From: Burkholderia pyrrocinia
GTDB lineage: Bacteria > Pseudomonadota > Gammaproteobacteria > Burkholderiales > Burkholderiaceae
Direction: 5' to 3'
Length of the DNA stretch: 64,000 nt
NCBI RefSeq assembly: GCF_018417535.1
Contig: NZ_CP070979.1
Location: 372,001 to 436,000 of the forward strand
Part shown: piece after piece, positions 6,627-45,049 of the stretch
Layout of the letters: every line of letters begins with the position of its first letter
Position numbering within the stretch: the first letter of the stretch is position 1
Notes under the pieces: generated by a model
What the model was told of the DNA's origin: nothing
The model's input: the letters and a program-made list of their open reading frames with translations, nothing else
Database searches by the model: none
Program-made: the position numbers and the translations under genes

Positions 6627-9600
6627 ATGGTAGCGATCGTTACGGGCCAAGGGCTGGGTCTGCAATCATCTTCGTCCACGGCGTTGGGCAGCAGAGGCGT
6701 GTTGGGTAACGCTGCCTTCGGCCAGACAGGCGAGCAGATCTACGTGAATGCCGAGAACGGCAACCTGATGCTGCAGGATCGCGATCAGCTGCTGTTGGGA
6801 CAGGGAATCAACGGCACGGTTTACCGGGCTTATAACAGCCTGGGGCAGCTCAATTGGCGCGAAGGAGCATCGCGCACGGTAGACGGGCTGACCGGGACGT
6901 TGAATGCCGCCGACAGCACGATCACGTTGACCGACTGGGACGGTTCCGTGACGATGTTCGCGTACGACGCGACACGCAAGCTCTACGTATCGAAAGCGGG
7001 CGTCGGCGCGAACATCGGCGATGCGAACAAGCCGGGGCCGGTCGCCGTGGCGACGACGGGGCCGCGAGCGACGCTTCAGTTCGATGAACAGACGAACAGC
7101 TGGCTCTGGACCGACGGCAATCGGCAGGTGACGGAAACCTACGACGCGTCCCAGGGCGGACGCCTTGTATCAAGTCGTGATGCCGATGGCAATACCGTGA
7201 AGTACGGCTATGACGCAGCCGGCCGACTGGCGCAAATCACGACGGCGGGCGGCGATGTCACCTACCTCGACTATGACACCGCCGGACGGCTCTCGGCCCT
7301 GCGCTCCGTCTACCAGCAAGCGAGCGGACAGTCCGCGACCGAAACCACGGTGCGCTACACATACGATGCGCAAGGGAGGTTGTCTCAGGTCGTGACCGAC
7401 CTGTCGCCGGAGGACAACAGCATTGCCGACGGCAATGTGTACACGACGACGTACACGTACGATGGCACGAGCAACCGGATTGCATCGATCAGGCAAACCG
7501 ATGGCTCCCGGGTGGAGTTCACGTACGCGTTGATCGACGGCGAGTATCGCGTCGCGGAGATCGCCCAGTTTGCAGACAACAGCGCCCCGAGGATCACGAA
7601 GCTGCAATACGATCTGGCGAACCGCACGACGACGATAACCGACCCGCTCGGCTTTGCCCAGCAGATGATCTGGAATTCGTCGGGTCAACTCGAGCGAGTC
7701 CAGACGATGCCGTCCAACGGGACCTGGGAAATTCTGCAAACTGTCTTCCTCTATGACGACGCGGGAAACGTCAGCCGCCGAAACGACGTCTTGCTCGGAA
7801 GCGTGTTTCTCAAGTATGACCAAGCGGGCAATCTGATCCAGCAGGATGGCAGCGTTAGCGGCGGCACGGTAAAGCGGACCTACGGAGCGCGCAATGAAGT
7901 GCTGACGGAGACGGTCAATGGTGGTTCGACGACGCGCTATGCATACGATGACCTCGGGCATTTGCGCTACGTGGTGAGCGCCGAAGGGCGTATCACGGAA
8001 TATCGATATAACAGTGCAGGGCAGCGCATCTCGGAGATCCGCTACGGCGGAGCAACATTCGACGTGACCCGGCTGTCCGAGTCGACGGCGCCGTCGTTCG
8101 ATGCACTCGACACCTGGATCACGGCGCAGAGCGATCGGCAGAATGCGCTGCGAATCGATTCGACATATGACTGGCGTGGCAATGTTGCGGTCGAAACGCG
8201 CTATGAGCGGCTGCTTGCGGATGGGACGGGAGACGAAACTGGCGGCGTTTCGCGCACGCGCTATATCTACGATCCGCACGGACGACTGTTACAGCGCTAC
8301 GTCGGGGAAGCCGGGAAGGAGCAGGTCGAGCAGTTCGCTTACGACGGTTTGGGCCGGCTGCTCAGCACGATCAGCTTCAATGGCGCGCTGACGACCTATC
8401 AGTACGACGATGCGCACCATACCGCGGTGGTGACGTTTGCCAACGGAATGACGCGCACGTCGACATACAACGCGGCGGGCGAACTCGTCGCGACAGCCGA
8501 TACCGTGCAAGGGCGTCTGCTGTCGCAAACGAAAAACTGGTATGACGCGGACGGCCGGCTGCGCATGACGACCGACGCGAATGGACAGAATACGCACTAC
8601 CTGTACAACACCCGAAATCAACGGGTTGCCACCATCGCGCCCGACGGTGTATTGACGGAGGCTGTCTTCCACCCGAACTATGGGGTACAGACCCGCACCG
8701 TCACGTACGCAACACGTCTGAGCGCCGCGCAACTGGCTACGCTGACCGACGCTACCGGACGACCGGTCGAACGCTTGGCATCCGGCGGCGGCTTGACGCT
8801 CGACACGTCGAATCTTCGGCCTGCCGAAACAGCCTCCGATCGATCCGAGTGGCTCATTCGTTACGGCAACTTCTATTCGCTGGATCATACGGTCGACGCA
8901 GACGGCACGGTCACCCAATTCAACTATGACAAGGCGGGTCGGTTGATCGGGAAGACGGTGTTTGCGAACCGGCTAGACATCGGGTCCGTGTCGAACACGG
9001 CCTTTCCCCGCTCGGACCTTCCGCCAGCGGACTCGGTGCGGGATCGAACGACACGTTATATGTATGATCGTGACGGCCTGCTGCGCGCGGAGCTGGATCC
9101 TGAAAGATTCCTGACGGAATACCGCTACAACGCAGCAGGCGAGCGTATAGAGACGGTCCGTTATGCAACGCCAGTAAGCGAGTCGGCTCTCGGCGCATAC
9201 ATTTCTTCCGCCTTTCCGAATTTCGATTCGCTCATTCCGGCCGCGAGCGCACAAGATATCTCGTCGCGCTTCGTGTACGACGCGCGAGGCTGGCTGGCTG
9301 CAGAGATCGACGGCGAAGGCTACGTGACGCGCTATCAGCACGATGCGCAGGGCAATGTGGTCGAACGCACGCGAGGACAACGGATCGCACTGGGCGCGTT
9401 GAGCCAGCCCCAGCAAGTGCCGATGAGCATCGAGGCGGCTGGCCCGAAGGGCGCGGTGCTCGAGATCTGGCTCGACGGCGTGCTGGCCGGCAAAGTGACA
9501 CTCACGTCGTCGGACTATACGCGCTATACGCTTTCGGTTTCAAACACGATTCCGCTTGCCAGCCATACGGTCGAATTCCGCGGACCGAGATACGATCCAA

Positions 9601-12600
9601 TTACGGTAAGGGCTGCAACGCTTGGCAATCACGAATTCGTTCGTGTTGTTGCGACGCAACCCGCGATAACCCTGCCCGATGACCCGAACGGCCATGTTCG
9701 CTTCACGTTGAACGCGGCGGATCTGGTTGCGTCGGCATCTGCACCCGGCAGCCTCGAACGCACGACCTACGCGTATGACGCGACGGGCCGGCTGCTGGAG
9801 CAAGTGACCTATGGCGTGATGGGCGCCAAAACGTCGAGCTTCACGTACGACCAGATGGGCCACGTGCTGACGGAAACACAGGGCAAGCCGCCGTTCAATC
9901 GCACGACGACTTATCGCTACGACGAAGAAGGACGTGTGGTCAGGAAGTATTCCGGAGAAGGTAGCCGGATACTCGAGCTGATCGACTTGTACGAAAAGAG
10001 TGGCGATGCGGCCATGCTCGCGCAGCTTTGGCGCGACGAGTTCTACGAAACCTACACGTACGATGCGACCGGCCTGCGGACGTCCGCGACCGATGCGGAC
10101 GGCCGCAAGACGCTCTACTACTACGACGCGAACGGCAATCTCGCGGCGACGATCAACGCGGCCGGTGAAGTCGTCGAGCATCGTCGTGACGCGTTCGGCG
10201 ACATCGAGCAGACCACCGCTTATGCCGTGCGGCTGTCGGCCGATGTGCTCAAGATGTTGCAGGGTGGCCGTCTCACGGATGACGTGGCGAGCGCCTTGGC
10301 CGCGCTCGACAACGCCGACGCCTCCCACACGTACTTCAGCTACAGCGCTGCGGGCCGGTTGACGAAGCGCACCGATGCGATGGGCGCGACCACCGACTAT
10401 GCGTACAACGCATTCGGCGAAGTGACGTCGCAATCGCAACAGGTGGGTATCAATACGCACCGAATCACGACGTACGACTACGACCGCGTCGGGCATCAGA
10501 TTCAACAGGCGACGGACCCGGGATACCTGAATCTGATCACGAAGGCCGTCTACGATGCGTTCGGCCGAGTGGTTCAATCCGTCGACGCGAACGGCGTTTC
10601 GCGCGTCACGGAATATGATCGCAACGGGCGGGTTGTCGGTACGCGCGATGCGTTCGGGCAGACGAGCACGACGTACGATGCGTTCAACAACTTGTTGACG
10701 TATACGGACCGGCTCGGCGGTACGTCGTTGTACACCTATAGCTCGAAAATGCAATCGATGTCCGTCAGGTCGGCCGCGGGTGTTTGGTCGACGACGACAT
10801 ACAACGAGTTCGGTCAGGTGGAGAATGTGACCGATGATCAGGAGAACGTCCTTCAATACCAGTACGACCGAGACGGCCTGCTGAAGTACGTCAGTCATCT
10901 CAGTCGGACGCTTCATGGATACGACGACACTCAGACCCATGGATACGACCGCGATCATAGCGGGAATGTGCGGACGGAGTCCGACGGTGGCTACAAATCG
11001 GTCGAATATTCGTACGACGCAGTCGGCCGCGTCCTGACGCGAAAGGAAAAGACCAACCAGAGCGCGCCGTGGAGCGGCCCCGATGGCTGGACGCCGGTCG
11101 AACTGGTGACCCGCTACGAATACGACGCGAAAGGACAGCAGGTTCGCACGACGGATCCGTCGGGAACGGTGACCGACACGCACTACGACCTGAATGGCCG
11201 CAAGCTGACCGTGGTCGTCGACCCGGACGGCCAGAAACTGTCGACGACCTTCACCTACGACGGCACGGGTCAGGTCCTGACGGTGACCGAGGGCGCGGAC
11301 AGCGCGGCCGCGAAGGTCACGCAGAACACCTACGACGGCGCCGGCCGGCTGATCGAGCAGATCGTGGACCCGGCCGGGTTGAAGCTGACGACGCACTATG
11401 CCTACGACCCGGTCGGCAACCTGGTCTCCGAGACCAATGCGGCGGGTGGCGTCACGCATCATGTCTATGACGCCGCCGGCCGGGAGATCGGCTCGGTCGG
11501 ACCGACGGGCACGGTGATCCGCATCGACCGCGACGCCGAAGGACGGATCGTCAAACGCACCGTATACGCGACGCCGGTGTCGCTGGCCGGCTTGCCGGAG
11601 CGGCTGACGGCGGAGCAATTGCGCGACCTGGTGCCGGCGTCGCAACAGGACGAGATCGGGCGGAACGTCTACGACGCGGACGGCAGACTGCGCTTTACCG
11701 TCGACGCAGCAGGCGCGGTAACGGAATTGACGTACGACGCCAGCAACAACGTGATTCGCAAGACGGCGTACGCGGGATTCATCAATCCGGCGGAAGGCGA
11801 GTCGCAAGACGCCATTCGCACTGCGCTGTCGCGCATCGATGCGCAGACCCGGTCTGGCGACCGCGTCACGCGCATGGTGTACGACGTCAAGCATCGTTTG
11901 GTTGCGACGATCAACGCGGCAGGTTTCGTCACGCGCAACACGTACAACCCGAGCGATCAGCTTGTCGACACCAAGTACTACGCGACGCCTTACACCGGCA
12001 ATGACAATCCGAACTACGCGACCTTTACGGATCTGCTGAATACGTGGGATGCGCAGGGCGCGCAGAACACCGTGCGCGAAACCCGGTGGTTCTACGATGA
12101 CGCGAACCGGCCGGTGTACGCGGTCGACGCCGAAGGCTACGTCACCGAAAATCAGTACGACAACGCTGGCCGTCTTGCGAAGACGATCCGTTATGCACGT
12201 GCTCATCCTGAGGCGACGGGCTACAAGAAGACCTACGACATGTGGCTGGCGTTCAGGTCCGAAACGCTCGACCAGGCTGCGGTCACGGCCTATCGCTACG
12301 ATGGCGCCGGCCGTCTGATCGAGACGACCAACGCCCTCGGCATCAAGACCAGCTATACGCTCAATGCGCTTGGTCGTGCGATCGACACGACCGTGGCGGC
12401 CGGTACGAGCGATGCATCGACGACGCATGCCGTCTACGATCTGGCGGGCAATCTGGTTGCGAAGACGCTGGCGTACGGTACGGCCATCGCGAGTACGACG
12501 CGCTATGCATACGACGCGGCAGGCCGGCAAATCGCGGCGACCGACCCGCGCGGCGTCGAACTCGCCGAGCAGGACACGGCCTGGGCGCTGGCGGAGCGCA

Positions 12601-15600
12601 GTGCGCGAGGCATCGTGGATGGTGCCGGTAATGCGCTGGCTGCGGCGGCGCTGACCGACGACCAGAAGCATGCGTTGCTGCAGGCGTATACGAGCACGCA
12701 ATCCTACGACGCCGCCGGCCGGGTGATCGAGAAGGCCGATGCGTTGCACAACGTGACGCGCTATCAGTACGACGCGTTCGGCAATCAGGTGATGATGACC
12801 GATCCGTTGTCGGCAACCACGGTGTCGTTCTACGACAAGCTCAACCGGGTCGTCGCGCAGGTCAGCCCGGAAAACTGGGTCGTCGGTACGCAATACGATG
12901 CGTTCGGCAACGTGACGCAGGTAACCGATTACCGGCTTGCCAGACCTGGCGCGGTCGACGACGCATGGAAGCGCGATGGTTGGAAATCGGATCTGTCGCA
13001 GATCCTGCCCGCCGGCGATCCGGCCGATGCCGTCACGCGCATGGAGTATGACAAGCTCGGTCGCGTCATCAAGTCGACCGACGCGGAGGGATATTTCGAA
13101 ACCTACGGGTATGACAGTCTCGGCAATCGCACCAGCTATACGAACAAGCTGGGTGGCACGTTCATCTATACGTACGACCATCTTGGGCGGATGACATCCG
13201 AGACGTTGCCGGTGCGGTCGATTCACAACAACAGCATCGTCGTCAACCGCTTCGAGTACGATTCGCGCGGCAACCGAACCAAGATGATCGAGGCGCAGGG
13301 GCTCGACGAAGAGCGAACTACCGAGTATGGGTATGACCTGCTCGATCGGCAGGTCAGAACCTATCAGTCGGTTTATCTGTACGAGTCGGTGGGCGATGCG
13401 ATCGAAACATCAGTCTACGATGCGCGTGGCAACCTGGTATCAAAGATCGGTGTCAACGGCGGGGTCACGACGTGGTACTACGATGCGGCCGGTCGCAAGA
13501 CGGGGCAAGTCAGCCCGAGCGGCACGCTCACGTTGTGGGAGTACGACCCAGGTGGCAACGCGACGCGTACGCGGATCTTCGGCGACCCGGTGAAGCCTAC
13601 GCAAGGTTCGCAGCCGCCGGCGCCGGTCGATGCAACCAGCGTGCGCGAAACACGTATGGTCTATGACGCAGACGGCCGCCTTGTCCAGTCGCGCGTGATG
13701 AACGTCGCGACCGGGTATTTCGATCCGAGCGCGGGTGAAGACCAGCGCGGTGAATACTTCATCACGTCCGGGAGCGAGCTCGTCACGCAATGGGAATACG
13801 ACGGACGGGGTGCCGTCATCGCCAAAACGGATCCGGGCGGCGGTCGTACGCTGTATTTCTACAATGGCAGCGGTAAGAAGACGCTGGAAATCGACGCCAA
13901 GGGATACGGGATCGCCTATACGCTGAACGAGCGAGGCGACGTGACACGGGAAATCCGGTTCGCCAAACCGTATCCGGATCCGGTGACGGCGAACCCGTCG
14001 CTCGGCACCACGCTGATCAACGCCTGGCCGCGCAGCGAAGACGACCGGATTACCGACTATACGTGGGACCGCAATGGGCGAAAGACGAGCGAAACTCGCG
14101 AAAACGTGCAGTTCGCGTCGGTTGACGGCAATGGAAAGCTGACGCAGCAGGTCGGTGCGGCGACGACGCGATATGCATACGATGGCGAAGGCCATCTGCT
14201 GCGGCAGGTTGACGCCAACGGCAATCAATACGACTACGAATACGATGTACTCGGCCATCGCACGCTGGAAAGGTTACCCGAATTTACCGATTACCAGGGG
14301 CAACAGGTCCGGGCTAGGACCGACTACCAATACGATGGTCTCGGCAATATCACCCGGGAAATTCGGCGAGACGGCAATCAAACTCAAGAGACTGCCTATA
14401 CGTACAATCGCGGACGAATCAAGGGCAAGTGGTTTGCCGACGGCACCTTGACTATCTACCACTACGATCTGGCAGGAAACGTGGTGGTCACGGGTTTCGG
14501 ATACAACGATGCCGACGGGAAGGGGACGTTCTATTCCAGCGTGACTCGCTATGACCTGGAAAACCGCGAGATAAAACGATATAACGGGTCGGATTATTGG
14601 GGACCGGCCGCGCCGGCTATCCAGACAGAGTTTCGATACAACGCATATGGGGAACTGATTGGCCGCCGCACGAACGGCGGCGGCGCGTACGCCGATCAAA
14701 GCGGCGTGTGGCAGGAATACACGGACTACGACAATGCTGGCCGTGTCGTTCGCACGAACTTCAATGACGGCATCTCGCATCTGTACATGTACGATCGCAA
14801 CGGGAATGCGACGCTGAAGGTCGAGTCGATGCAGACCGACCTGCGCGGGTTCGCGATCAAAACGGGCGAGGATCTCGAGAAACTGCTCCAGAAGGCCGAC
14901 ATGATGCAGACCTTTACGCGCTACGACGCGCGTAACCAGGTCATCCAGATCCGTCAACCGAAGACGTCGGGCAGCGTGCCGCGCATCAGCTTCAGCCCGG
15001 TCGACATTCCGATCGACGGCGGGGTGTTTGCGAATACGCAGTTGAGTATCGGCGGGTGGATCGAGAAGCAGAATCGCCCAGTTGCTGGTCCGGTGTACAC
15101 GGAACCGGCGGAAGTGAGCTTGACTACGTCAGCGGGAGCCGCAGCTACAGCCAGCGTGTCGTGGAATCTGGTGTCGTCTTATATTGAAATATATAGCCTC
15201 GACATCAATCTCCCGGACCTGAAAGACGTATACGGAGCGTATCAGTATGAGGTCGTTGCGACGTATCGGGAGCAAGGTGAAAATCTCGGGACATCACGGC
15301 CTTCCGGGGTAGACCACGATCCGGTTGACATCACGCAGACCCAAACGATTCAAACAGCGGTCAACCAGTCGGGTAAGGTTACTTTTCCGGTCAATAGCTA
15401 CGTCCGGATAGGTACGCCTAGCGGCGACTATCCCTTTAAACCGCTCCAATTCGATTACTCCATCGAAGTCTATGTCAAGCCTCAAAATGGCTCCGGCGAA
15501 CGGCGTTTGCTCGGAAAGGTGGAAAAGGGGGCTGTCCTGTATGAAGCCTGGGTATCCAACGGCAACGTTCAGGCCAAAGTGGCTGATCAGGGCGCCCTCA

Positions 15601-18600
15601 ATTCGTCGCAGGAGCTGCAGTCGGTATCCAATCGATTGAGTCTGGCCAATCACACGTTACCCCAGGGTGCGCGTGCGATGCTGTACTACCGCCCATCTGG
15701 GTCGACCGAAGCATTCCGGACGCTCGGCAAGGATCCCAACAGCGAACCCGGTTCATACACGATCGACGTAGGTAATTTGCCCGACGACGATTACGAAATG
15801 ATCTTCATGGCCATATCGGACGGCAGCGACGGGCGTGAGCCCGGCACGTTGTTGCGTCGTGACGGCTATAACGCACATATCGCGCGAGGCGGCAACTCGA
15901 CGGTAACGTCGTCGCCGATCCCCGCTTACGAGGAAAGCAGCCGTGCCGGTTTCCTGGCCGATGCATCCGGCAGCTACATTTGGACGTCGCCGCAAACCCT
16001 GAACCTCTACTCGGTGCGCGATTCAGCGTTGCATCTGGCCGACCACGTCGTCGTGAAGATCCGCCCGCAGGGTGGCACCACATGGAACGAAGAACGAACG
16101 CTCTGGCGCGATCCGGCCACGGGCGCATTCTCGATCGACCTGTCGGGATATGCGCCGGGCAACCTCGACGTGGAGTTCGACCTGTACAACGCGGCGGGCC
16201 AAAAGCTCGACGCCGTACTGAGTTCGGTCGGGTTGCCGGGAGGAAACGGCTCGCCGTCGTTCAGCACGAACTATCTCGCCGATCTGAAATCGACGATCGT
16301 ATTCCATACGCAACCTGCCGACACCGATTACATCATGGTGTCGTGGGTGCAGGACGGCACGACACGCTACTCGCGCGTCACGCGTATGGGTAACGGCGAG
16401 TTCACCTGGGACGTTCAGGCGGGTGGCTTGGTCCCGCAGCCCGGCCAGTCGTACGGCTACGCGATCAAATACACCGCCTACGACGCCGCGGGCATACCGC
16501 TGGCGATGGGCGCCGGCGACATCACCGTCGGCACGCTGGGCAATTCGCAGGTCACATTGACGGGCAGCGAGCGGCCGAGCATTTTCGAGTTCAAGCCGGT
16601 CGGCGCGGATGGTCAGCTACTGACGAACGTCAATACGATCACGCTCTACTACCGTCAATCCACGGTAAAGGACCAGGTGTACGACCGTCCCTTTACCGAA
16701 GTGACGCTGACGCGCGACGCTCTCGGACGCTTCCTGTTCGACGCGTCGGCGTTGCCCACACGCGCGGAATTCGAGTATCGCTATCTTGCGAAGGATGCGA
16801 CCGGCACCGTATTGACCGAGCGTCAAAGCTATTTCCTGACCGGGACGCGTAACAACCCGGTGACGAACGTCGACATCGTCGGCGTGATCGAGGAAACGGC
16901 GAAAGACATGACGATCGACCGGCTGCAGCAGCACAACGCATTCGGCGAGGTGTCGGCCGAGCGTGACGGCCGCGGCAACTGGACGACTTCCTCTTACAAC
17001 ACGATGGGGAATCTGACGCTCAAGCACGAGCCGAAGGTCAGCGTGACACTCACGAATGGTGCACAGGTGGAAGTCGAACCGGAGACGCGGTTCTACTACG
17101 ACCTCACCGGCAACCTGGTCGGATTGAAGGATGCCAACGGCAACTTGACCACGCAGCAGTGGAACTATGGGTTAACCAAGGCCGCAGTGGCCCGGACATG
17201 GGACGCACTGGGGTTCAGCAAGACGATGCAGTACGACGCGTATGGCGATCTGCGTACGACGATCGACGAGCTGGGGCGACGCACCGACTATCGCTACGAC
17301 AAACTAGATCGCCTGATCGAAGTCGATCGGCCGGCGCTGGCCGACGGTCAGCGGAGCATCGACCGCTACGAATATGATTCGCTGGACCGGCGCATCGCGC
17401 ATACGGATGCACTGGGTAACCGGGAGCGCACCTTCTACGATGTCGATGGTCGGGTCGTTAAAACGATCAGTGCGGCGGGCCGTGAAGTGAAATACGACTA
17501 CAAGTGGGCCACAAGCATGGGGTCGGCCGGGACGGCGACCGCCGGCGGGTGGATCCGCACGACGACCAATGCAAACGGCATGACGACGGTCGACGAGAAC
17601 GATCAGTTCGGGCGTCTGATGAAGCACACGGACTTCGGTGGGCACGTGTTCCAGTACACGTACAACTGGGCTGGGCTGCTTGCCAAGCAGTCTGGATCGA
17701 GCGGACAGGATGTTGACTATACGTATTACTCGAACGGGCTGGTGCGCTCGATCAAGGATAACGCGACGAAGACACAGTCGTTGTACGAATACGATGGCGA
17801 CGGCAACCGGACGGCGGAGTACTTCTCGAACTTCGGCGACGTCTACGTGTTCGCGCAGTCGCGAGTCAAGTACGACGCGCTGAACCGGGTGACGGCGATC
17901 GAGGACGACGCGTACAAGGTCTATTACGAGTACGACGCAGTAGGTAATCGTCGGCACATGCTCGCGAAGTACACCGATATGGTTGGCTATCACGATCGCG
18001 AGCAGGAGTACTGGTACGAATACGACGCGTTGAATCGTTTCACGGTGTCGATGGGTAGTCTGTCGGGTGCGCGTGCGACCGATCCGAACGACACGAGCGT
18101 TTCGATCGTGAAGGGAGCACTTGGCGGCGACGGCGTGCAGCTTGGCTACAACGCGGCGGGCGAGCGCGTGCTGGCTGTGTACGCGAAGGACGGCCGGACT
18201 GAGCGTTATACGTACGATGCGAACGGTTACCTGACCACGCAGAGCGTCAACGACATCGTCGTGCAGGAGCGCAAGAACGACCTGCTGGGCCGCGTGACGG
18301 GATTCATCGAACGCGATGCGAAAACGGGTCAGCAGGTTACCGGGATCGACCGCACCTGGGACGCGGACGGGACGATCACGCAGGAGCGCGACACGCTGCA
18401 TCGCGCGACGACCGCGTATTCGCGTATGGCGGATGGCACGTTGACGAAGGTCGAGACGACGCCGGACGACTCGAGCGAGACGCGTACGACTTCCACGTAT
18501 GCATACGAGTGGTGGGACAGCGCGAAGCAATCCCGCGTGACGGTGCAGGCATCCAATCCGAATGCACCGGGCTGGCGGCCAGCGACGTCGTACTTCAACT

Positions 18601-21251
18601 ACGACGAGAACGGCAATCTGAAGAGCACGTACGACGACGGCGGAAACGATCCGGGCAAGGCGCGCGCATTCCAGTACTGGACCGACCTTCGCGGCCAGGT
18701 GCAGCGGCGCGACGAGCTTACCGGCGTCACGGTGGACGCAAATGGGCGAATCAACGGGGCGGCAGGCGATCGCAAGCACAACTATTACTACCTGAACGGT
18801 AACCGGGTAGGGAATCAGGGCAACGACGGGATCGACCAGATCGACTATATGCAGGAACTTGCCGGCAAGCTTGGCAAGGGCAACGAGAATCAGTATCGGG
18901 TCTTCACACCGATCAGTGCCGCCGACTTCGACGAGAACTACATGGCGATCAACGGCACGTATCCGGCAGCAAGCGCGGGCCAGTGGACGGTGCGGGCAGG
19001 CGATACGCTGAAGTCGGTTGCGTCGGCGCTGTGGGGCGATTCGAGCCTGTGGTACATCCTGGCGGACGCGAATGGTCTGAAGAGTACGGACGAGCTGCGG
19101 GCCGGTCAGTTGCTGACCGTTCCGAACAAGGTGACGAACGTCCACAACACGTCGACGACGTTCAAGCCGTACGATCCGGGCCTCGCGATTGGCAATACGC
19201 AGCCAACGCTGCCGGCGCCGCCTCCACCGCCGGGGCCCAGCGGGTGTGGCGGATTCATGCCGATTATTGCGATCGTCGTGGCGGTAGTGGCAACGGTGTT
19301 TACGGCGGGGGCGTTGACTGCGCCGGCCGGGGCATCGTTCAGCGCGATTATGTCGGCGGGTGGCACTGCGCTGACGGGGGGAGCGGGTCTGGCAGGTGTG
19401 GGTGCGTCGGTCGCGGGTGGCGCAGTGGGTGCAGCCGCCTCTCAGGGTGTCATGATTGCGTCCGGCGAGCAGCACGGCTTGGATTTGAACGGCATCACGC
19501 TGGGAGCCATAGCAGCGGGGGTTACGGCTGGTATCGGAGCCGCAGTGAGCGCGCCGGCGAACGCGTTGAGCGCAGCGGCTCAAGGCGCCGTGAGATCGGT
19601 GGCAACGCAAGGCATCGGTGTGGTAACGGGGCTGCAGGAACATTTTGACTGGAAGGGTGTGGCGGCCAGCGCGATTGCGTCGGGTGTAGGATACGGCGTG
19701 GGCGAGCAGGTCGGGAAGGTGGCGATCGGAGCGGGTGTCGGCGCTGGTATGGGCCGGTTCGTGAGCGGTGTAGCGGGCGGGTTGAGCGCGGGAGTTGCAA
19801 GTACACTGGTTCGCGGCGGGAGTCTGGGGCGTAACATCGGGGCAATCGCGGCGGATGCGGTGGCGACCACCGTTGGCAATATGGTGGCCGACCGGATGAA
19901 GAGTCAGCCGACATCGACCGCGCTGCGCACCCAGCAGGCGATTGACGCGATGAACGGGCAGATCCTGCCAAGTAGTGTAGGTTCCGCCGGGACGGGTTTC
20001 GTACCCGCCAATGCGCCGTATATCCGGTTCGAAAACAGTCCGCAGGCCAGCGCCACAATGGCACTGGCAAACTACGACTCCCCTGCGGGCATTGAACAAG
20101 CGAGGGCGCAACGCATCGCCGAGTTGCAATTGCTCGCCGATCAGCCTCTCGACCGTGGATTCTCCGGGGTACAGGTTCTGATCGAAGGTGTTGGTTCGAC
20201 TGGCGGACCAGCCCCTCATCCGGCCGCTGAGCTGGGCACGATTCGAAATCTAAACTGGTTCGAAAGCCAGTTGGCCTTCAATCCGGTTGCGCAGGCAGCG
20301 CAAGGGTTTGTCGACCAAGGGTTAGCGCTCGCGAGCGGCGCTTGGAATGTCGTGTCGCATCCCATGAATACGGTAGCCGCGATCGGCGCGCACTACGCGA
20401 ACGCGTATGAAGCTGGCAACCTTGGTGGCGCGATTCTGCGCGACGCAAGCGGTATCGCGGCCGGTGCGGTGAAGGGCGCGCTCAGCCCGATTGATGCGCT
20501 GTATCGGCAAAACGAGGCGGGTGGAGCTTACCGACTGGGCGGGTCCATGATGGATGCGGCGCTGTCGGCGGCAACCCCCGGTGCCACGAACGCAGCGATT
20601 CGTCTAACCGGAGCTGGACTCGAACGTGGCGCTGCAGCGTTTGGACCGGCACTCGACAGGGTGGCAAGCGGCTTCTTGGTGAACAGGGGCATGCTGCTGA
20701 ACGCTGTACCTGAAAGCGGAGGTTTCGGAGGTGCTGCTGCAACGCTGTCGCGAGTCGAAAGCAGATTCGCCAGCGCATCGCGAGAAGTTGGTTTCATTAT
20801 CGATAGTAAGTCGGGGGATATTCTTGCCGTGCGAAGAGCAGGGTTGGGTAACGGGACACAGATTAGCCTTAATTCCGCTACGGATTTCCCGTTGATGAGC
20901 GGCAATGTTTTTACCCATAACCATCCGTTAGGCGGTAATTTGTCGCCTGGCGACGTATCAACCGCGATTGGCGCAGGTGTGCGGGAGTTCCGAGCAGTTA
21001 CACCGACACGTACCACTTCTATTGCGTTTGCTAATCCGCCTGATGGGCTGATTGGTGCGCCTGGCCCAGCCGTTCTATTCATGGATGGCGAGAAGTCTGC
21101 GATTGCTGCCACATACAGGGCAGGTTTGGCTGATGGAAGTCTGATTCCGCCGACTGATCTGGCCACGAGGAACGTTTGGCTGAGTGACTATTTCATACAG
21201 CAGTTGTCAGCACGAAATCCTTGGATTCAGTACACGGTAACTACACAATAA
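6627..21251 (+). CDS. Giant YD/RHS-repeat protein with LysM and C-terminal JAMM-type metalloprotease motif (4874 aa)
   Basis: It begins without a Sec signal or PAAR domain. Dozens of YD repeats (YDAAGRL-type) fill residues ~165-925, 1045-2780 and 3425-4100. Between blocks sit a ~110-residue module (~929-1040) resembling a calcium-dependent carbohydrate-binding domain and a ~640-residue beta-rich insertion without YD motifs (~2784-3421). A LysM domain (WTVRAGDTL...LTVPNK, ~4117-4170) follows. Next comes a Pro-rich linker and ~220 residues of Gly/Ala-rich hydrophobic sequence (~4209-4428), possibly membrane-active. The tip carries Glu4720 (REVGF) and His4764-Asn-His4766-Pro...Ser4773...Asp4776, matching the JAMM/MPN+ zinc pattern E...HxHP...SxxD. 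Known RHS proteins form a shell around a toxic tip, and JAB/JAMM tips are a described polymorphic-toxin class. The DPxGL motif that normally ends the RHS core is absent before the tip. The secretion route is unknown. Confidence 0.9.
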   Translation: MVAIVTGQGLGLQSSSSTALGSRGVLGNAAFGQTGEQIYVNAENGNLMLQDRDQLLLGQGINGTVYRAYNSLGQLNWREGASRTVDGLTGTLNAADSTITLTDWDGSVTMFAYDATRKLYVSKAGVGANIGDANKPGPVAVATTGPRATLQFDEQTNSWLWTDGNRQVTETYDASQGGRLVSSRDADGNTVKYGYDAAGRLAQITTAGGDVTYLDYDTAGRLSALRSVYQQASGQSATETTVRYTYDAQGRLSQVVTDLSPEDNSIADGNVYTTTYTYDGTSNRIASIRQTDGSRVEFTYALIDGEYRVAEIAQFADNSAPRITKLQYDLANRTTTITDPLGFAQQMIWNSSGQLERVQTMPSNGTWEILQTVFLYDDAGNVSRRNDVLLGSVFLKYDQAGNLIQQDGSVSGGTVKRTYGARNEVLTETVNGGSTTRYAYDDLGHLRYVVSAEGRITEYRYNSAGQRISEIRYGGATFDVTRLSESTAPSFDALDTWITAQSDRQNALRIDSTYDWRGNVAVETRYERLLADGTGDETGGVSRTRYIYDPHGRLLQRYVGEAGKEQVEQFAYDGLGRLLSTISFNGALTTYQYDDAHHTAVVTFANGMTRTSTYNAAGELVATADTVQGRLLSQTKNWYDADGRLRMTTDANGQNTHYLYNTRNQRVATIAPDGVLTEAVFHPNYGVQTRTVTYATRLSAAQLATLTDATGRPVERLASGGGLTLDTSNLRPAETASDRSEWLIRYGNFYSLDHTVDADGTVTQFNYDKAGRLIGKTVFANRLDIGSVSNTAFPRSDLPPADSVRDRTTRYMYDRDGLLRAELDPERFLTEYRYNAAGERIETVRYATPVSESALGAYISSAFPNFDSLIPAASAQDISSRFVYDARGWLAAEIDGEGYVTRYQHDAQGNVVERTRGQRIALGALSQPQQVPMSIEAAGPKGAVLEIWLDGVLAGKVTLTSSDYTRYTLSVSNTIPLASHTVEFRGPRYDPITVRAATLGNHEFVRVVATQPAITLPDDPNGHVRFTLNAADLVASASAPGSLERTTYAYDATGRLLEQVTYGVMGAKTSSFTYDQMGHVLTETQGKPPFNRTTTYRYDEEGRVVRKYSGEGSRILELIDLYEKSGDAAMLAQLWRDEFYETYTYDATGLRTSATDADGRKTLYYYDANGNLAATINAAGEVVEHRRDAFGDIEQTTAYAVRLSADVLKMLQGGRLTDDVASALAALDNADASHTYFSYSAAGRLTKRTDAMGATTDYAYNAFGEVTSQSQQVGINTHRITTYDYDRVGHQIQQATDPGYLNLITKAVYDAFGRVVQSVDANGVSRVTEYDRNGRVVGTRDAFGQTSTTYDAFNNLLTYTDRLGGTSLYTYSSKMQSMSVRSAAGVWSTTTYNEFGQVENVTDDQENVLQYQYDRDGLLKYVSHLSRTLHGYDDTQTHGYDRDHSGNVRTESDGGYKSVEYSYDAVGRVLTRKEKTNQSAPWSGPDGWTPVELVTRYEYDAKGQQVRTTDPSGTVTDTHYDLNGRKLTVVVDPDGQKLSTTFTYDGTGQVLTVTEGADSAAAKVTQNTYDGAGRLIEQIVDPAGLKLTTHYAYDPVGNLVSETNAAGGVTHHVYDAAGREIGSVGPTGTVIRIDRDAEGRIVKRTVYATPVSLAGLPERLTAEQLRDLVPASQQDEIGRNVYDADGRLRFTVDAAGAVTELTYDASNNVIRKTAYAGFINPAEGESQDAIRTALSRIDAQTRSGDRVTRMVYDVKHRLVATINAAGFVTRNTYNPSDQLVDTKYYATPYTGNDNPNYATFTDLLNTWDAQGAQNTVRETRWFYDDANRPVYAVDAEGYVTENQYDNAGRLAKTIRYARAHPEATGYKKTYDMWLAFRSETLDQAAVTAYRYDGAGRLIETTNALGIKTSYTLNALGRAIDTTVAAGTSDASTTHAVYDLAGNLVAKTLAYGTAIASTTRYAYDAAGRQIAATDPRGVELAEQDTAWALAERSARGIVDGAGNALAAAALTDDQKHALLQAYTSTQSYDAAGRVIEKADALHNVTRYQYDAFGNQVMMTDPLSATTVSFYDKLNRVVAQVSPENWVVGTQYDAFGNVTQVTDYRLARPGAVDDAWKRDGWKSDLSQILPAGDPADAVTRMEYDKLGRVIKSTDAEGYFETYGYDSLGNRTSYTNKLGGTFIYTYDHLGRMTSETLPVRSIHNNSIVVNRFEYDSRGNRTKMIEAQGLDEERTTEYGYDLLDRQVRTYQSVYLYESVGDAIETSVYDARGNLVSKIGVNGGVTTWYYDAAGRKTGQVSPSGTLTLWEYDPGGNATRTRIFGDPVKPTQGSQPPAPVDATSVRETRMVYDADGRLVQSRVMNVATGYFDPSAGEDQRGEYFITSGSELVTQWEYDGRGAVIAKTDPGGGRTLYFYNGSGKKTLEIDAKGYGIAYTLNERGDVTREIRFAKPYPDPVTANPSLGTTLINAWPRSEDDRITDYTWDRNGRKTSETRENVQFASVDGNGKLTQQVGAATTRYAYDGEGHLLRQVDANGNQYDYEYDVLGHRTLERLPEFTDYQGQQVRARTDYQYDGLGNITREIRRDGNQTQETAYTYNRGRIKGKWFADGTLTIYHYDLAGNVVVTGFGYNDADGKGTFYSSVTRYDLENREIKRYNGSDYWGPAAPAIQTEFRYNAYGELIGRRTNGGGAYADQSGVWQEYTDYDNAGRVVRTNFNDGISHLYMYDRNGNATLKVESMQTDLRGFAIKTGEDLEKLLQKADMMQTFTRYDARNQVIQIRQPKTSGSVPRISFSPVDIPIDGGVFANTQLSIGGWIEKQNRPVAGPVYTEPAEVSLTTSAGAAATASVSWNLVSSYIEIYSLDINLPDLKDVYGAYQYEVVATYREQGENLGTSRPSGVDHDPVDITQTQTIQTAVNQSGKVTFPVNSYVRIGTPSGDYPFKPLQFDYSIEVYVKPQNGSGERRLLGKVEKGAVLYEAWVSNGNVQAKVADQGALNSSQELQSVSNRLSLANHTLPQGARAMLYYRPSGSTEAFRTLGKDPNSEPGSYTIDVGNLPDDDYEMIFMAISDGSDGREPGTLLRRDGYNAHIARGGNSTVTSSPIPAYEESSRAGFLADASGSYIWTSPQTLNLYSVRDSALHLADHVVVKIRPQGGTTWNEERTLWRDPATGAFSIDLSGYAPGNLDVEFDLYNAAGQKLDAVLSSVGLPGGNGSPSFSTNYLADLKSTIVFHTQPADTDYIMVSWVQDGTTRYSRVTRMGNGEFTWDVQAGGLVPQPGQSYGYAIKYTAYDAAGIPLAMGAGDITVGTLGNSQVTLTGSERPSIFEFKPVGADGQLLTNVNTITLYYRQSTVKDQVYDRPFTEVTLTRDALGRFLFDASALPTRAEFEYRYLAKDATGTVLTERQSYFLTGTRNNPVTNVDIVGVIEETAKDMTIDRLQQHNAFGEVSAERDGRGNWTTSSYNTMGNLTLKHEPKVSVTLTNGAQVEVEPETRFYYDLTGNLVGLKDANGNLTTQQWNYGLTKAAVARTWDALGFSKTMQYDAYGDLRTTIDELGRRTDYRYDKLDRLIEVDRPALADGQRSIDRYEYDSLDRRIAHTDALGNRERTFYDVDGRVVKTISAAGREVKYDYKWATSMGSAGTATAGGWIRTTTNANGMTTVDENDQFGRLMKHTDFGGHVFQYTYNWAGLLAKQSGSSGQDVDYTYYSNGLVRSIKDNATKTQSLYEYDGDGNRTAEYFSNFGDVYVFAQSRVKYDALNRVTAIEDDAYKVYYEYDAVGNRRHMLAKYTDMVGYHDREQEYWYEYDALNRFTVSMGSLSGARATDPNDTSVSIVKGALGGDGVQLGYNAAGERVLAVYAKDGRTERYTYDANGYLTTQSVNDIVVQERKNDLLGRVTGFIERDAKTGQQVTGIDRTWDADGTITQERDTLHRATTAYSRMADGTLTKVETTPDDSSETRTTSTYAYEWWDSAKQSRVTVQASNPNAPGWRPATSYFNYDENGNLKSTYDDGGNDPGKARAFQYWTDLRGQVQRRDELTGVTVDANGRINGAAGDRKHNYYYLNGNRVGNQGNDGIDQIDYMQELAGKLGKGNENQYRVFTPISAADFDENYMAINGTYPAASAGQWTVRAGDTLKSVASALWGDSSLWYILADANGLKSTDELRAGQLLTVPNKVTNVHNTSTTFKPYDPGLAIGNTQPTLPAPPPPPGPSGCGGFMPIIAIVVAVVATVFTAGALTAPAGASFSAIMSAGGTALTGGAGLAGVGASVAGGAVGAAASQGVMIASGEQHGLDLNGITLGAIAAGVTAGIGAAVSAPANALSAAAQGAVRSVATQGIGVVTGLQEHFDWKGVAASAIASGVGYGVGEQVGKVAIGAGVGAGMGRFVSGVAGGLSAGVASTLVRGGSLGRNIGAIAADAVATTVGNMVADRMKSQPTSTALRTQQAIDAMNGQILPSSVGSAGTGFVPANAPYIRFENSPQASATMALANYDSPAGIEQARAQRIAELQLLADQPLDRGFSGVQVLIEGVGSTGGPAPHPAAELGTIRNLNWFESQLAFNPVAQAAQGFVDQGLALASGAWNVVSHPMNTVAAIGAHYANAYEAGNLGGAILRDASGIAAGAVKGALSPIDALYRQNEAGGAYRLGGSMMDAALSAATPGATNAAIRLTGAGLERGAAAFGPALDRVASGFLVNRGMLLNAVPESGGFGGAAATLSRVESRFASASREVGFIIDSKSGDILAVRRAGLGNGTQISLNSATDFPLMSGNVFTHNHPLGGNLSPGDVSTAIGAGVREFRAVTPTRTTSIAFANPPDGLIGAPGPAVLFMDGEKSAIAATYRAGLADGSLIPPTDLATRNVWLSDYFIQQLSARNPWIQYTVTTQ

Positions 21252-21260
21252 GGCGCGGCG

Positions 21261-21563
21261 ATGAGCAATACGAATACTCTTCAAGCGGTGGTCAATGACT
21301 TCGTTGGGTCGCTGAGTACGAGCGATAGGGAAGTTGTTCGTCTACTGATTCTTAATCATCAGATTCGGCAAAGCTTGGCGTGGTACAAAGAGGTGGCCGA
21401 TCGCTATCTTCGGGGACCGAGGGCGGCTGAGCTGATCAACGAGATAGAGAGGAAATATCCGGATGAGAGCATGTGGAAAAGCCTAGATTCATCTCCCGAG
21501 ACATTGATGTTTGAAGCGGGAATTATTTTGCGCGAAACACAAGCAGTGCTGAATGCAGATTAA
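21261..21563 (+). CDS. Candidate immunity protein for the YD-repeat toxin (100 aa)
   Basis: A 100-residue, helical, Glu/Asp-rich soluble protein (NTLQAVVNDFVGSLSTSDRE...IINEIERKYPDE-type composition). It starts 9 bp after the giant gene's stop and has no signal peptide. No strong ribosome-binding site precedes the ATG, so translational coupling to the upstream gene is likely. Position, size and single-gene pairing are those of cognate immunity genes of polymorphic toxins. If the JAMM tip acts in the cytoplasm, a cytoplasmic immunity protein fits. The family is not recognised and the role is inferred from context. Confidence 0.6.
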   Translation: MSNTNTLQAVVNDFVGSLSTSDREVVRLLILNHQIRQSLAWYKEVADRYLRGPRAAELINEIERKYPDESMWKSLDSSPETLMFEAGIILRETQAVLNAD

Positions 21564-21575
21564 GGAACGAACAAA

Positions 21576-22040
21576 ATGCAGTTGACGAAATTGATCCCGC
21601 TGGGCGTTACGCTGTTGATTCTGGCAGGCTGCGCATCAGTACCGATGGGCGATCCCCAGCGAGACGCGGAACTGAAGACGTTCAGCGCACCGCAGGAGAA
21701 AGCGGCCATTTACGTGTATCGGAACGAAAGCATGGGCGGTGCCGTCAAGATGCCGGTGACGCTTGATGGTAAGACGTTGGGCGATACGGCCGCGAAGACT
21801 TACCTGTATAGCGAGGTTGAGCCTGGCCGTCACCAGTTGGTCTCGAAGGCGGAAAACGATTCGACGCTGGACGTCGATACGGTCGCCGGAAAGATCTATT
21901 ACGTCTGGCAGGAGGTCAAGATGGGCATCCTGTACGCTCGCAGCAAACTGCAACTCGTCGACGACACGACTGGGCAGGACGGGGTGAAAGCATCGAAGCT
22001 GGCGGTCTTGAAACCTGAGCAGGTCGAGGCTGCAAAATGA
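21576..22040 (+). CDS. DUF2846-like lipoprotein (copy 2)
   Basis: Same 154-residue architecture as 2249-2713: a lipobox LAGC near residue 19, then the DUF2846-like segments KAAIYVYRNESMG and GDTAAKTYLYSEVEPGRHQ. AAGGAAC lies about 7 nt upstream of the ATG, 12 bp after the candidate immunity gene. The near-identity of residues 65-120 with copy 1 points to recent duplication or gene conversion. It may simply be carried along with the toxin locus, or it may be an envelope accessory; nothing in the sequence decides. Confidence 0.8.
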   Translation: MQLTKLIPLGVTLLILAGCASVPMGDPQRDAELKTFSAPQEKAAIYVYRNESMGGAVKMPVTLDGKTLGDTAAKTYLYSEVEPGRHQLVSKAENDSTLDVDTVAGKIYYVWQEVKMGILYARSKLQLVDDTTGQDGVKASKLAVLKPEQVEAAK

Positions 22041-26222: not shown

Positions 26223-26987
26223 TCACGCAAGAAGGTAGAAGTCGTCGGTGCCGATCTGGCGACGAAGCTCGTCAAGCGCCGCGCGATGCAACTGCGAAAT
26301 GCGGCCCTTGGAGAGATTGAGAATGTCGGCGATGTGCTCGAAGCTCAAGCGGTGAAAGTAGTGGTAGCGAATGATCTTTTGCTCGCGCGCCGGCAAGCGG
26401 TCGACCGCTTCGTACAGGCGGGAGCGCGTCTGTTGCTGCGCCAGCGTCCGGTACGGATGATCCTGGAACGGCTGCACGGCACCGGGATCGGCGCCGACCA
26501 TGCCCGTATCGTCGAGCATGAAGCTGATCGCCAGGCCGACCGTGACGCCCGCGAGCACGCGGAACACGTCGCGCGGTTCGTCGCCGGGTGCATCCTTCAG
26601 CGATTCCAGCCGTTCCCTGCGAATGCTGGCACGCAGTGCCGTTTGCTCCTGGGCGTCGGTGAGCCGGACAACGCCGTCCAGCACGCTTCCCTTGATTCGC
26701 TGCGTGGCGAACGTCGTAAATGCGACGCCGCGGGTCCGGTCGAACCGGTCGATGGATTCGAGCAGGCCGACGCAGGAGAACTGCATGTAGTCCTGGTACT
26801 CGACATCGTCGCGGTGTCGCCCACGATACAGCTTGCCTGCGAGTGCGGCCGCGTACGACAGATAGAAATCGAACAACGCCTCTCTTGCATCGGGATCGCG
26901 ACTGCGCTCGAAGGCGAGCCACAGATCGTGTTCTCGTCCGACGGTCGATATGGCGTCTGCTGCGCCCGGCAGATCCTGCAGCGTCAT
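26223..26987 (-). CDS. fliA: Sigma-28-family RNA polymerase sigma factor
   Basis: Region 2 is clear (VEYQDYMQFSCVGLLESIDR, FTTFATQRIKGSVLDG) and region 4 carries the helix-turn-helix (LPAREQKIIRYHYFHRLSF, EHIADILNLSKGRISQLH). At 254 aa it has the usual FliA length. The start is ATG 26987, whose ATGA overlaps the fliP stop. Known relatives transcribe late flagellar genes (filament, stator, chemotaxis). In lateral systems the equivalent is LafS. Here it sits near the end of the export/hook operon with no flgM anti-sigma nearby, so its target genes should lie elsewhere in the genome. Confidence 0.9.
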   Translation of the reverse strand: MTLQDLPGAADAISTVGREHDLWLAFERSRDPDAREALFDFYLSYAAALAGKLYRGRHRDDVEYQDYMQFSCVGLLESIDRFDRTRGVAFTTFATQRIKGSVLDGVVRLTDAQEQTALRASIRRERLESLKDAPGDEPRDVFRVLAGVTVGLAISFMLDDTGMVGADPGAVQPFQDHPYRTLAQQQTRSRLYEAVDRLPAREQKIIRYHYFHRLSFEHIADILNLSKGRISQLHRAALDELRRQIGTDDFYLLA

Positions 26988-27757
26988 TTGAAGCTGCCCA
27001 GCACGCCACGCAGGATGAGGCCCCAGCCGTCTACCAGCACGAACATCAGGACCTTGAGCGGCAGCGAGATCGTCGCCGGCGGCACCATCAGCATGCCGAG
27101 CGACAGCAGTACGCTGGAGACGACGAGGTCGATCAGCAGGAACGGCAGCAGGATGACGAAGCCGATCTGGAACGACACGCGCAGCTCGTTCAGAATGAAC
27201 GCGGGCGTCAATTGCAGCAGGCTGACGTCGGCGGGTGTCGCGGGAAGCGGCTGGTGCGACATTTCGTACATCCACTTCAGTTCGTCTTCGCGCACCTGGC
27301 GCAGCATGAAGTCGCGCAGCGGCCCGCTGCTGCGTTCGAGCGCCTGCGACAACTCGAGGTGGCCGCCGATGAAAGGCTGAAGCGCGTCGTGGTTGATCGT
27401 CTGCAGCGTCGGCAGCATTGCGAACACGGTCAGGAACAACGCGAGGCTGATCAGTACCGGCGTCGGCGGCGTTTCAGGCATGCCGAATGCATGGCGGATC
27501 ATCGACAGCACGATCGCGATCCGGATAAAGGCCGTCATCGAGACGACGAATGCGGGGAGGAGGCTGAGCACCGTCAGCAATACGGCAATGCGTACGGCTT
27601 CGGACATGCCGGCCCCGGAACGCGCGAAATCGGCGACACCCAGCGACGACAGCGGCGCCGCGGCCTGCAGCGCAGGCGCCGCATGAGCCCAGCCCGCCGC
27701 GCCACTCAGCAGTGCGAACAGCAGGATGGCCAGAACGCGGTGCAACGTTGCGCGCAT
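26984..27757 (-). CDS. fliP: FliP, flagellar export gate protein
   Basis: 257 aa from ATG 27757, with GGAG 7 nt upstream. A cleavable signal (RVLAILLFALLSGAAGWAHA) is followed by the FliP core with four membrane segments: SMTAFIRIAIVLSMIRHAFG, PTPVLISLALFLTVFAML, and near the C-terminus FQIGFVILLPFLLIDLVV with SLPLKVLMFVLVDGW. FliP pentamers form the export gate with FliQ and FliR. It begins 1 nt after the fliO stop and overlaps the sigma factor by 4 nt. Confidence 0.95.
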   Translation of the reverse strand: MRATLHRVLAILLFALLSGAAGWAHAAPALQAAAPLSSLGVADFARSGAGMSEAVRIAVLLTVLSLLPAFVVSMTAFIRIAIVLSMIRHAFGMPETPPTPVLISLALFLTVFAMLPTLQTINHDALQPFIGGHLELSQALERSSGPLRDFMLRQVREDELKWMYEMSHQPLPATPADVSLLQLTPAFILNELRVSFQIGFVILLPFLLIDLVVSSVLLSLGMLMVPPATISLPLKVLMFVLVDGWGLILRGVLGSFK

Positions 27758-27758
27758 C

Positions 27759-28106
27759 TCAGGACTCCGACGGCGACTGGTCGCGTGCATCGACGACGCG
27801 GCTGCCGTTCGCATCGGACATGAGAAGAACAACGCGCTGGTCATATTGGATCAAATGCAGGGTGGTCCGGGGGGAAAGACGGGCATGTTCGATCACGCGA
27901 ATGCGCGGAGCATTCGCCGGATCGCGAGGCGTGCCGCGCACGGTGCGCGCCCGAATGACGAGCGCGGCGACGACGCCGATCGCGAGACACAACAGCAACG
28001 CCAGCACGACGCGAACCCAGTCCACGCCGAGGTGCGAGAACAGGCCGGCGGCCGGCGCGGTATCGGTCGCGCGTTCGAGCCACGACGTTTGCACCGGCGC
28101 GGTCAT
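27759..28106 (-). CDS. fliO: FliO, export gate assembly protein
   Basis: 115 aa with one membrane segment (VDWVRVVLALLLCLAIGVVA) followed by a basic cytoplasmic domain typical of FliO (IRVIEHARLSPRTTLHLIQY, RVVLLM). FliO scaffolds assembly of the FliP ring. The ATGA start overlaps the fliN stop by 4 nt. Position between fliN and fliP supports the call more than sequence does, as the family is poorly conserved. Confidence 0.85.
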   Translation of the reverse strand: MTAPVQTSWLERATDTAPAAGLFSHLGVDWVRVVLALLLCLAIGVVAALVIRARTVRGTPRDPANAPRIRVIEHARLSPRTTLHLIQYDQRVVLLMSDANGSRVVDARDQSPSES

Positions 28107-28435
28107 CGATCGGCGGTTCCGACGCTGACGATGCGCACGCCGAAGCGGCCGTCGACGGCCACGATTTCTCCGGTCGCGATCGTCTTGCCGTTCAACGCGA
28201 TCTCGACCGGATCGCCGATCGATCGGTCGAGTTCGAGAACGCCGCCCGATTGCAGCGTCATCATGTCCTTGATGTTCATCGTGGTGCGACCGAGCAGCAC
28301 GTCGACGGTGACCTTGACGCCGTCGAGCAACTCGAGCATCGGGCGCGGCGATTCTTCCGCGTTCGCATCGGCGTGCTGTTCGGGCAGATCGACGCGGGCC
28401 GCGACGGCCTGTTTGGGAAACGTATGGGTAGTCAT
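28103..28435 (-). CDS. fliN: FliN, C-ring/export-cargo platform protein
   Basis: 110 aa. A short variable N-terminus is followed by the SpoA domain: MLELLDGVKVTVDVLLGRTT, GVLELDRSIGDPVEIALNGK, GEIVAVDGRFGVRIVSV. FliN forms the lower C-ring, where it binds FliH and export complexes and, with FliM, takes part in switching. The start ATG 28435 overlaps the fliM-like stop by 4 nt (ATGA). This is the most canonical of the C-ring proteins here. Confidence 0.95.
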   Translation of the reverse strand: MTTHTFPKQAVAARVDLPEQHADANAEESPRPMLELLDGVKVTVDVLLGRTTMNIKDMMTLQSGGVLELDRSIGDPVEIALNGKTIATGEIVAVDGRFGVRIVSVGTADR

Positions 28436-36045: not shown

Positions 36046-36351
36046 CTACATCTGCATCCGCATCAGTTCCTGGTAACCCTCGACGATGCGAGAGCGCACT
36101 TGCAACGCAAACTGCAACGACATGCGCGCTTCTTCCAGCGCGATCATGACCTGGTGCGGCGGTACCGCGCCGTCGAGCGCAAACCGGGTTACCGCGTCGT
36201 CGGCGAGCCTGGCGGTCTGGTCGACGCGGGTCGCGCCCGCGACGAGCCAGTCCGAGAAGCTGGATTGCTGCGCCAAAGGCGACATTGCGGCCGTCTCCGA
36301 AAGCGGCGCGCCCTGGAGCATCGAGATCGATTCGATCGGATTGGCACTCAT
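36046..36351 (-). CDS. fliE: FliE, MS-ring/rod junction protein
   Basis: 101 aa. The C-terminal signature (HQVMIALEEARMSLQFALQV, RSRIVEGYQELMRMQM) is typical of FliE, which joins the MS ring and export gate to the proximal rod. It overlaps flgC by 4 nt and ends 3 nt before fliF. Confidence 0.95.
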   Translation of the reverse strand: MSANPIESISMLQGAPLSETAAMSPLAQQSSFSDWLVAGATRVDQTARLADDAVTRFALDGAVPPHQVMIALEEARMSLQFALQVRSRIVEGYQELMRMQM

Positions 36352-36794: not shown

Positions 36795-36797
36795 CGC

Positions 36798-38881: not shown

Positions 38882-38882
38882 G

Positions 38883-40411: not shown

Positions 40412-40413
40412 GA

Positions 40414-45047: not shown

Positions 45048-45049
45048 GG

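Follow-up and report, generated by a model that had tools for sequence, protein, structure and literature searches.

A giant YD-repeat protein with a JAMM-type tip and its linkage to a filament-less flagellar-type export locus in Burkholderiales

A 64,000-nucleotide stretch of the Burkholderia pyrrocinia genome (contig NZ_CP070979.1, positions 372,001 to 436,000; hereafter the window, whose own coordinates are used throughout) contains an intact open reading frame (ORF) at 6627-21251 on the plus strand that codes for a YD-repeat protein of 4874 residues. Downstream of it, at 25.6-45.3 kb on the minus strand, lies a near-complete flagellar-type export locus encoding a gate, ATPase, rod, rings, hook, hook cap and sigma factor. 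The first-pass annotation of this DNA, made from the sequence alone, had described the giant protein and reported no obvious secretion system; the latter statement has to be abandoned, as the window also contains the export locus, about 4-24 kb downstream of the giant gene. The giant gene and the flagellar-type locus are genetically linked, and we favor, with a probability of roughly 0.6, the interpretation that giant antibacterial YD-repeat toxins leave the cell through a flagellar machine that lacks a filament. The features of the giant gene and its immediate neighbor are as follows:

6627..21251 (+): giant YD/RHS-repeat protein, 4874 residues, predicted polymorphic toxin (ORF call, Pfam, comparison with relatives)
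6627..7400 (+): conserved N-terminal module MVAIVxGxGLGL...GExxYVNAxxGNL, candidate export signal (motif from residue 1 in relatives; tracks the flagellar-type locus)
18987..19124 (+): LysM domain, residues 4121-4166 (Pfam E 6.6e-6)
19245..19319 (+): Cys4207 and hydrophobic segment 4213-4231, after a Pro-rich stretch (sequence composition)
20709..21248 (+): predicted JAMM-fold tip, approximately residues 4695-4874 (family alignment, predicted structure, GC content)
21261..21563 (+): 100-residue candidate immunity protein (9 nucleotides downstream of the giant gene; has homologues)

Within the genus, the FlhA of the window was matched at 57-100% identity in 5/65 genomes (G000, G447, G007, G018 and G446), all other listed matches being at 45% or less. 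The part of the giant protein that precedes the tip was found in six genomes, namely these five and G458, where it is fragmented; the probability of this 5/5 overlap arising by chance is 7e-7, which, like the corresponding value for the order, ignores shared ancestry. In a sample of 399 genomes of the order, FlhA at 50% identity or more is present in 15, with the next match at 46% or less. The N-terminal query at an E-value of 1e-3 recovered 89 of the 399, mostly through YD repeats; the N-terminal module itself is present at E <=3.1e-17 in 14 genomes (in G271 from residue 24 on), and the next genome, at E 4.2e-9, matched in the repeats only. Both thresholds were chosen after viewing the lists, at the gaps between 50% and 46% and between 3.1e-17 and 4.2e-9. 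FlhA and the module occur together in 12 of the 15 FlhA genomes (chance 1.4e-18), and misses are possible in this sample because at most six candidates per genome were scored for the module and at most two for FlhA. The exceptions are G333 and G285, which have the module without the FlhA of this system, and G061, G372 and G110, which have the FlhA without a strong module; G061 has a 37% piece of the giant body at a contig start near FliQ.

The two elements reside on the same contig in all five FlhA-positive genomes of the genus and in 8/15 of the order (G000, which is counted in both sets, G291, G422, G424, G113, G092, G213 and, by the body piece only, G061), with the giant gene about 0.8-30 kb from the locus. 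In six of the seven order genomes without shown linkage FliQ is less than 5 kb from a contig end; in G315 no giant gene occurs within the 40 kb viewed, and in G057 and G414 the far side of the locus falls outside the viewed region. Among the plasmid matches listed (15 of 468 records), FlhA at 50% identity or more was seen on three, from B. ubonensis, Variovorax and Undibacterium YM2, all of which belong to the six plasmids that hold the N-terminal module. The B. ubonensis plasmid pMSMB2035 (NZ_CP013415.1, L060/L200), typed as conjugative, carries in succession the genes from fliQ to fliP, a sigma factor gene, TPR genes and then the giant gene. On the Undibacterium plasmid pUYM01 (L201, NZ_AP018442.1, 129783-168629) the module heads a 38.8-kb gene beside the same flagellar-type locus; this gene is annotated as a tandem-95 repeat protein, and examination of 12,405 of its residues showed nine YD..G motifs. 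Since the YM2 module stands at the head of a tandem-95 repeat gene, the sequences suggest that what these systems share is not the YD repeats but the machine together with the N-terminal module.

In the locus of the window, family searches identified FliP, two FliM/N-type proteins, FlgE, FlgD, FliI, FliF, an FlgG-type protein, FlhA, FlhB, FlgH, a weak FliH and a FliA/WhiG-type sigma factor; FlgF, FliE, FlgC, FlgB, FlgI, FlgA, FliR and FliQ were named by eye and from the gene order of the annotated plasmid pMSMB2035:

25644..26216 (-): TPR protein, 190 residues, kept beside many loci, possible chaperone (family search, locus comparison)
26223..27275 (-): FliA/WhiG-type sigma factor, true start probably internal (below FliA/WhiG family cut-offs)
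26984..27844 (-): FliP (Pfam E 3.1e-69; TIGR01103 over cut-off)
28103..28657 (-): FliN-type C-ring protein (family search)
28432..29256 (-): second protein with a FliM/N C-terminal domain (family search)
29253..30446 (-): FlgE-type hook protein (family search)
30469..30996 (-): FlgD hook cap (family search)
30866..31579 (-): ORF in the place of FliK (position only; no family match)
31576..32025 (-): ORF in the place of FliJ (position only; no family match)
32022..33344 (-): FliI/YscN-type ATPase (family search)
33337..34047 (-): FliH/SctL (weak, below cut-off)
34044..34574 (-): 176-residue ORF, present in the closer loci of G447, G007, G018 and G291 (no family match, FliG not shown)
34564..36042 (-): FliF (family search)
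36046..37163 (-): FliE, FlgC and FlgB (by eye and plasmid gene order)
37176..38932 (-): FlgI and FlgH (FlgI by order; FlgH Pfam E 2.1e-44)
38883..39641 (-): FlgA position (by order; no Pfam match)
39638..41130 (-): two rod proteins, FlgG type (Pfam) and FlgF type (40414-41130, by eye)
41166..43229 (-): FlhA of a separate clade (family search, tree)
43226..45316 (-): FlhB, FliR and FliQ (FlhB Pfam E 4.9e-92; FliR and FliQ by order)
45686..46879 (-): TPR protein, 397 residues (family search, locus comparison)

Relatives of the 397-residue TPR protein lie within 2 kb of the start of the giant gene in G291, G113, G424 and the B. ubonensis plasmid, and the TPR proteins beside the locus give weak scores, below cut-off, to the SycD/LcrH and SctY chaperone models.

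The YD-repeat and LysM assignments made at first pass were borne out by Pfam, which recognized 42 RHS_repeat stretches in addition to the LysM domain. No Sec signal was seen by eye in the N-terminal module. The hydrophobic region also proved to be real, with a transmembrane-like segment at residues 4213-4231 (Kyte-Doolittle 2.51) followed by Gly/Ala-rich sequence up to about residue 4420. Attachment to peptidoglycan through LysM and membrane penetration by the hydrophobic segment, as proposed at first pass, are possible roles; as both elements are part of the constant body, they would serve every tip alike. Cys4207 (codon 19245-19247), between the Pro-rich stretch and the hydrophobic segment, is the sole cysteine of the 4874 residues, and a cysteine occupies the equivalent position in 7/7 full-length family members examined. 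As noted previously, the protein does not end in the usual DPxGL of the RHS core: its only DPxGL is located mid-body, at residue 1581.

The C-terminal region of these proteins appears to be exchangeable. Compared over segments of 150 residues, P0007 from B. stabilis and P0001 are 61-99% identical up to residue 4650 and 34% identical in the segment after that, with 13 identical positions in the last 74 residues; judged by sequence, P0007 is the same body with another tip. Conversely, a Chromobacterium protein (P0005) has the same tip on a divergent body. The GC content is 52.8% in the tip and 47.9% in the neighboring gene, as against 61.2% in the body. The position directly downstream of a toxin tip is the usual place of immunity genes. 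The 100-residue neighbor matched no curated family over cut-off, and its model is all-helical at middling confidence (predicted local distance difference test score, pLDDT, 70.6). In G447 (L053), Burkholderia sp. IMCC1007 (L056), Caballeronia pedi (L057) and C. jiangsuensis (L058), a gene for 105-108 residues comes directly after the sister tip, and these partners form one family at all four loci for which DNA was available. For a possible homology of the window's partner with the 105-residue partners, hhalign gave an E-value of 0.13 (probability 0.5%); global alignments gave z of about 0 to 6.9 over 28 pairs, reaching 4 or more in seven, all with the same one member. An orphan homologue of the window's partner occurs amid a row of small ORFs in G457 (L046, 4212-7376), in the manner of an immunity gene bank. 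Other members of the giant family carry different tips: one of the two G092 giants resembles phage endolysins (E 7.6e-42), suggesting that it acts on peptidoglycan, and the G291 giant resembles the TreX ADP-ribosyltransferase toxin (E 1.1e-24). It is the exchange of body and tip in B. stabilis and Chromobacterium, together with the partner genes of the sister tips, that makes the giant gene look like a polymorphic toxin.

The tip had been described as a JAMM-type protease, and the motif E...HxHP...SxxD was recovered at the positions originally given (E4720, H4764, H4766, S4773 and D4776); the spaced pattern E..HxHP..[ST]..D arose in 2/2000 shuffles of the whole protein. In an alignment of 32 rows, comprising the tip and 31 relatives, HNHP and the aspartate are kept in 32/32, the glutamate in 29/32 (three gaps) and S/T in 30/32, counts that are biased towards HNHP because the search was seeded by rows already sharing it. 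The alignment used 31 of 33 retrieved proteins, P0019 (the window's own sequence) and P0044 having been dropped; L032, L033 and P0016 are also absent from it. Structure prediction, which the first-pass annotation had proposed as a check, gave an AlphaFold2 model with a pLDDT of 90.9, and all 50 PDB entries listed as structural matches are JAMM/MPN proteins, at modest Z-scores of 5.4-6.8. The tip is thus very probably a JAMM-fold domain, and predicted fold, family, tip exchange and partner gene support the first-pass reading of a JAMM-type tip on a YD-repeat carrier, in the layout of a polymorphic toxin. Pfam searches with two tips returned no family at E-values up to 10, JAB was not among the families matched by seven members of the tip family, the Prok-JAB model had no match in the window's own genome, and the tip profile found no PDB sequence at E-values up to 1. 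Membership in DUF4329 (Tox-JAB-2) or Prok-JAB was accordingly rejected; weak RRP40 matches over the tip linker, below cut-off, were set aside. Among 61 related genomes the tip occurs in one, the window's own. Relatives of the tip form the C-termini of two phage head proteins (L032, 4083-5483, and L059, 4939-6435; Phage_min_cap2 and Phage_Mu_F), a tblastn search of phage sequences with the L032 tip yielding one record, and a stand-alone relative on a Hymenobacter plasmid (L034, 5902-6474) adjoins a Fic family gene. These would constitute an uncurated JAMM clade that spans Rhs toxins, a plasmid protein and the head proteins of phages. The tip of another family member, that of G007 (L050), shows on visual inspection a further JAMM-like motif of different sequence, HTHPGG...SSSD; a PDB sequence search with this tip matched nitrite reductases alone (best E 0.0011), which we took as chance.

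Going by the JAMM motif, the tip may hydrolyze a cytoplasmic target in a zinc-dependent manner, be it an isopeptide, a peptide or nucleic acid. Of the earlier label, "JAMM-type" therefore stands and "protease" is not established, as toxin JAB domains have been argued to be possible nucleases (Zhang et al. 2012, PMC3482391, in the part available). A nuclease or nucleotide-processing enzyme in place of a peptidase comes close to an even prospect, the two readings being near equal, and it is compatible with delivery by the flagellar-type machine. That machine might alternatively be an ordinary second flagellum, which would explain the rod, ring and hook genes, the FliM/N-type proteins and the FliA-type sigma factor. 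The locus does hold the export gate, rod, rings and hook of a flagellum, several of these genes being recognized by order only, but neither flagellin nor FliG: no match to Flagellin_N, a family that also covers FlgL, or to FliG_C was found beside the locus in 19/19 genomes. In 18 of the 19 Flagellin_N is present elsewhere, either on other contigs or, in G018, G092 and G447, at a distance of more than 100 kb along the contig of the locus, and FliG_C shows the same picture. In draft assemblies another contig may adjoin the locus, though not in G000, G447 and G092, with three contigs each. In G424 (89% complete) neither Flagellin_N nor FliG_C is matched anywhere, yet both locus and giant gene are present. 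FliD, FlgK and stators were likewise not seen among the window ORFs examined, no genome-wide search having been made for them. The FlhA proteins of the system form one clade against 18 canonical FlhA (21 rows, support 100/100), a tree that confirms rather than discovers the split since its rows were picked by identity. These observations make a second flagellum very improbable.

It is rather unlikely, though a more substantial consideration, that the giant toxin leaves the cell by another route, either a type VI secretion system (T6SS) elsewhere in the genome or one yet unknown, with the flagellar-type locus as a co-inherited neighbor serving another task. Other Rhs toxins do use the T6SS, and the N-terminal module occurs without this FlhA on 3/6 plasmids and in 2/14 genomes. 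On the other hand, the linkage is seen repeatedly, with varying arrangements, in different genera and on plasmids, and the Pfam search agreed with the first-pass annotation in matching no PAAR family in the giant protein. The annotation had also excluded T6SS genes, which holds for the window ORFs given family search, a set that does not include 47-64 kb. T6SS delivery, our first candidate, was lowered on these last two grounds. The giant protein could also be a surface appendage or adhesin on a hook-like structure that replaces the filament, with the tips as accessories; the LysM domain, the long repeats and the tandem-95 gene of pUYM01 would fit such a role, while the exchangeable enzyme-like tips and the small genes directly downstream speak against it, and we deem it improbable.

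Returning to toxin export by the flagellar-type machine, we infer a contact- or surface-delivered antibacterial system of two linked parts. One would be a dedicated, flagellum-derived type III export machine with gate, ATPase, rod, P/L rings, hook and hook cap, whose locus has no filament gene and no recognizable FliG. The other would be its giant substrate, which begins with the N-terminal module, continues through the YD repeats, LysM and the hydrophobic stretch, and ends in a toxic tip that can be exchanged. The giant protein would be exported through the machine and its tip presented to, or injected into, neighboring bacteria; in the window the tip would act as a JAMM-fold metalloenzyme that the 100-residue neighbor neutralizes, conferring self-protection. 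A hydrophobic extreme N-terminus has been described for rod and hook export signals (PMC8983047, in part), and the MVAIV at the start of the giant protein fits such a signal. There is perhaps an even chance that these proteins represent a new class of toxin delivery, in which a horizontally moving, filament-less flagellar machine, acting as a hook-tipped injector, is dedicated to giant YD-repeat toxins sharing one N-terminal export module, across Burkholderiales chromosomes and plasmids, and with a new JAMM metallotoxin clade among the warheads.

Several known systems share some of these properties. T6SS Rhs effectors also combine YD repeats with a polymorphic tip, but the giant protein lacks PAAR and a DPxGL near the tip and is about three times longer than typical T6SS Rhs effectors. 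The flagellar type III export apparatus has the same FlhA, FlhB, FliP/Q/R, FliI, rod, rings, hook and hook cap, whereas the present locus has no flagellin or FliG match, a separate FlhA clade and a linked giant toxin. Tox-JAB-1 and Tox-JAB-2 (DUF4329) are JAB/JAMM tips on RHS carriers with a neighboring gene (PMC3482391); the window tip differs in its HNHP and ExR motifs and its want of a Pfam match, and its neighbor in reaching the cut-off of no curated family. MuF phage toxins (PMC5576092) are comparable in that relatives of the window tip also terminate phage head proteins (L032, L059); they differ from the giant protein in having a head protein as carrier, and JAB does not occur in the main text of that paper. 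The Myxococcus T3SS* predation system also ties a type III-derived machine to bacterial killing, though it is described, in the part of PMC10433427 available, as lacking outer-membrane parts and needle, while the window locus has ring and hook genes. Bacterial teneurin-like toxins (PMC13018210) are YD-shell toxins without obvious delivery machinery; the term LysM and a flagellar link are both absent from the available text. Zhang et al. (PMC3482391) count type III systems among the routes of toxin trafficking, assign the T3SS to certain toxin domains and leave open whether a different toxin, an RNase of Firmicutes, might be delivered through the flagellum; no flagellar link is made for YD toxins in the part available. 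Among the literature matches listed, no title or abstract beginning connects a flagellar-type export locus with YD/Rhs toxins, which is no proof of absence. Taken together, a giant toxin beside a filament-less export machine suggests a delivery route not yet described. Where PAAR is lacking, giant YD-repeat toxins often have no known delivery route, and the tight linkage offers a direct, testable answer for one group of them; flagellar export might then join the known means by which polymorphic toxins are trafficked and, if true, would account for an extra flagellar gene set without a filament.

The giant gene is flanked by two paralogous DUF2846 genes, the first at 2249-2713 and the second listed here; G007 has one near its own giant gene.

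21576..22040 (+): DUF2846 lipoprotein-like protein (family search; paralogue at 2249-2713)

TPR proteins are encoded near the giant gene at 1-1482, 2965-4695 and 23836-25224, two of which also match glycosyltransferase-9, one just over and one below cut-off; the giant protein might conceivably be glycosylated.
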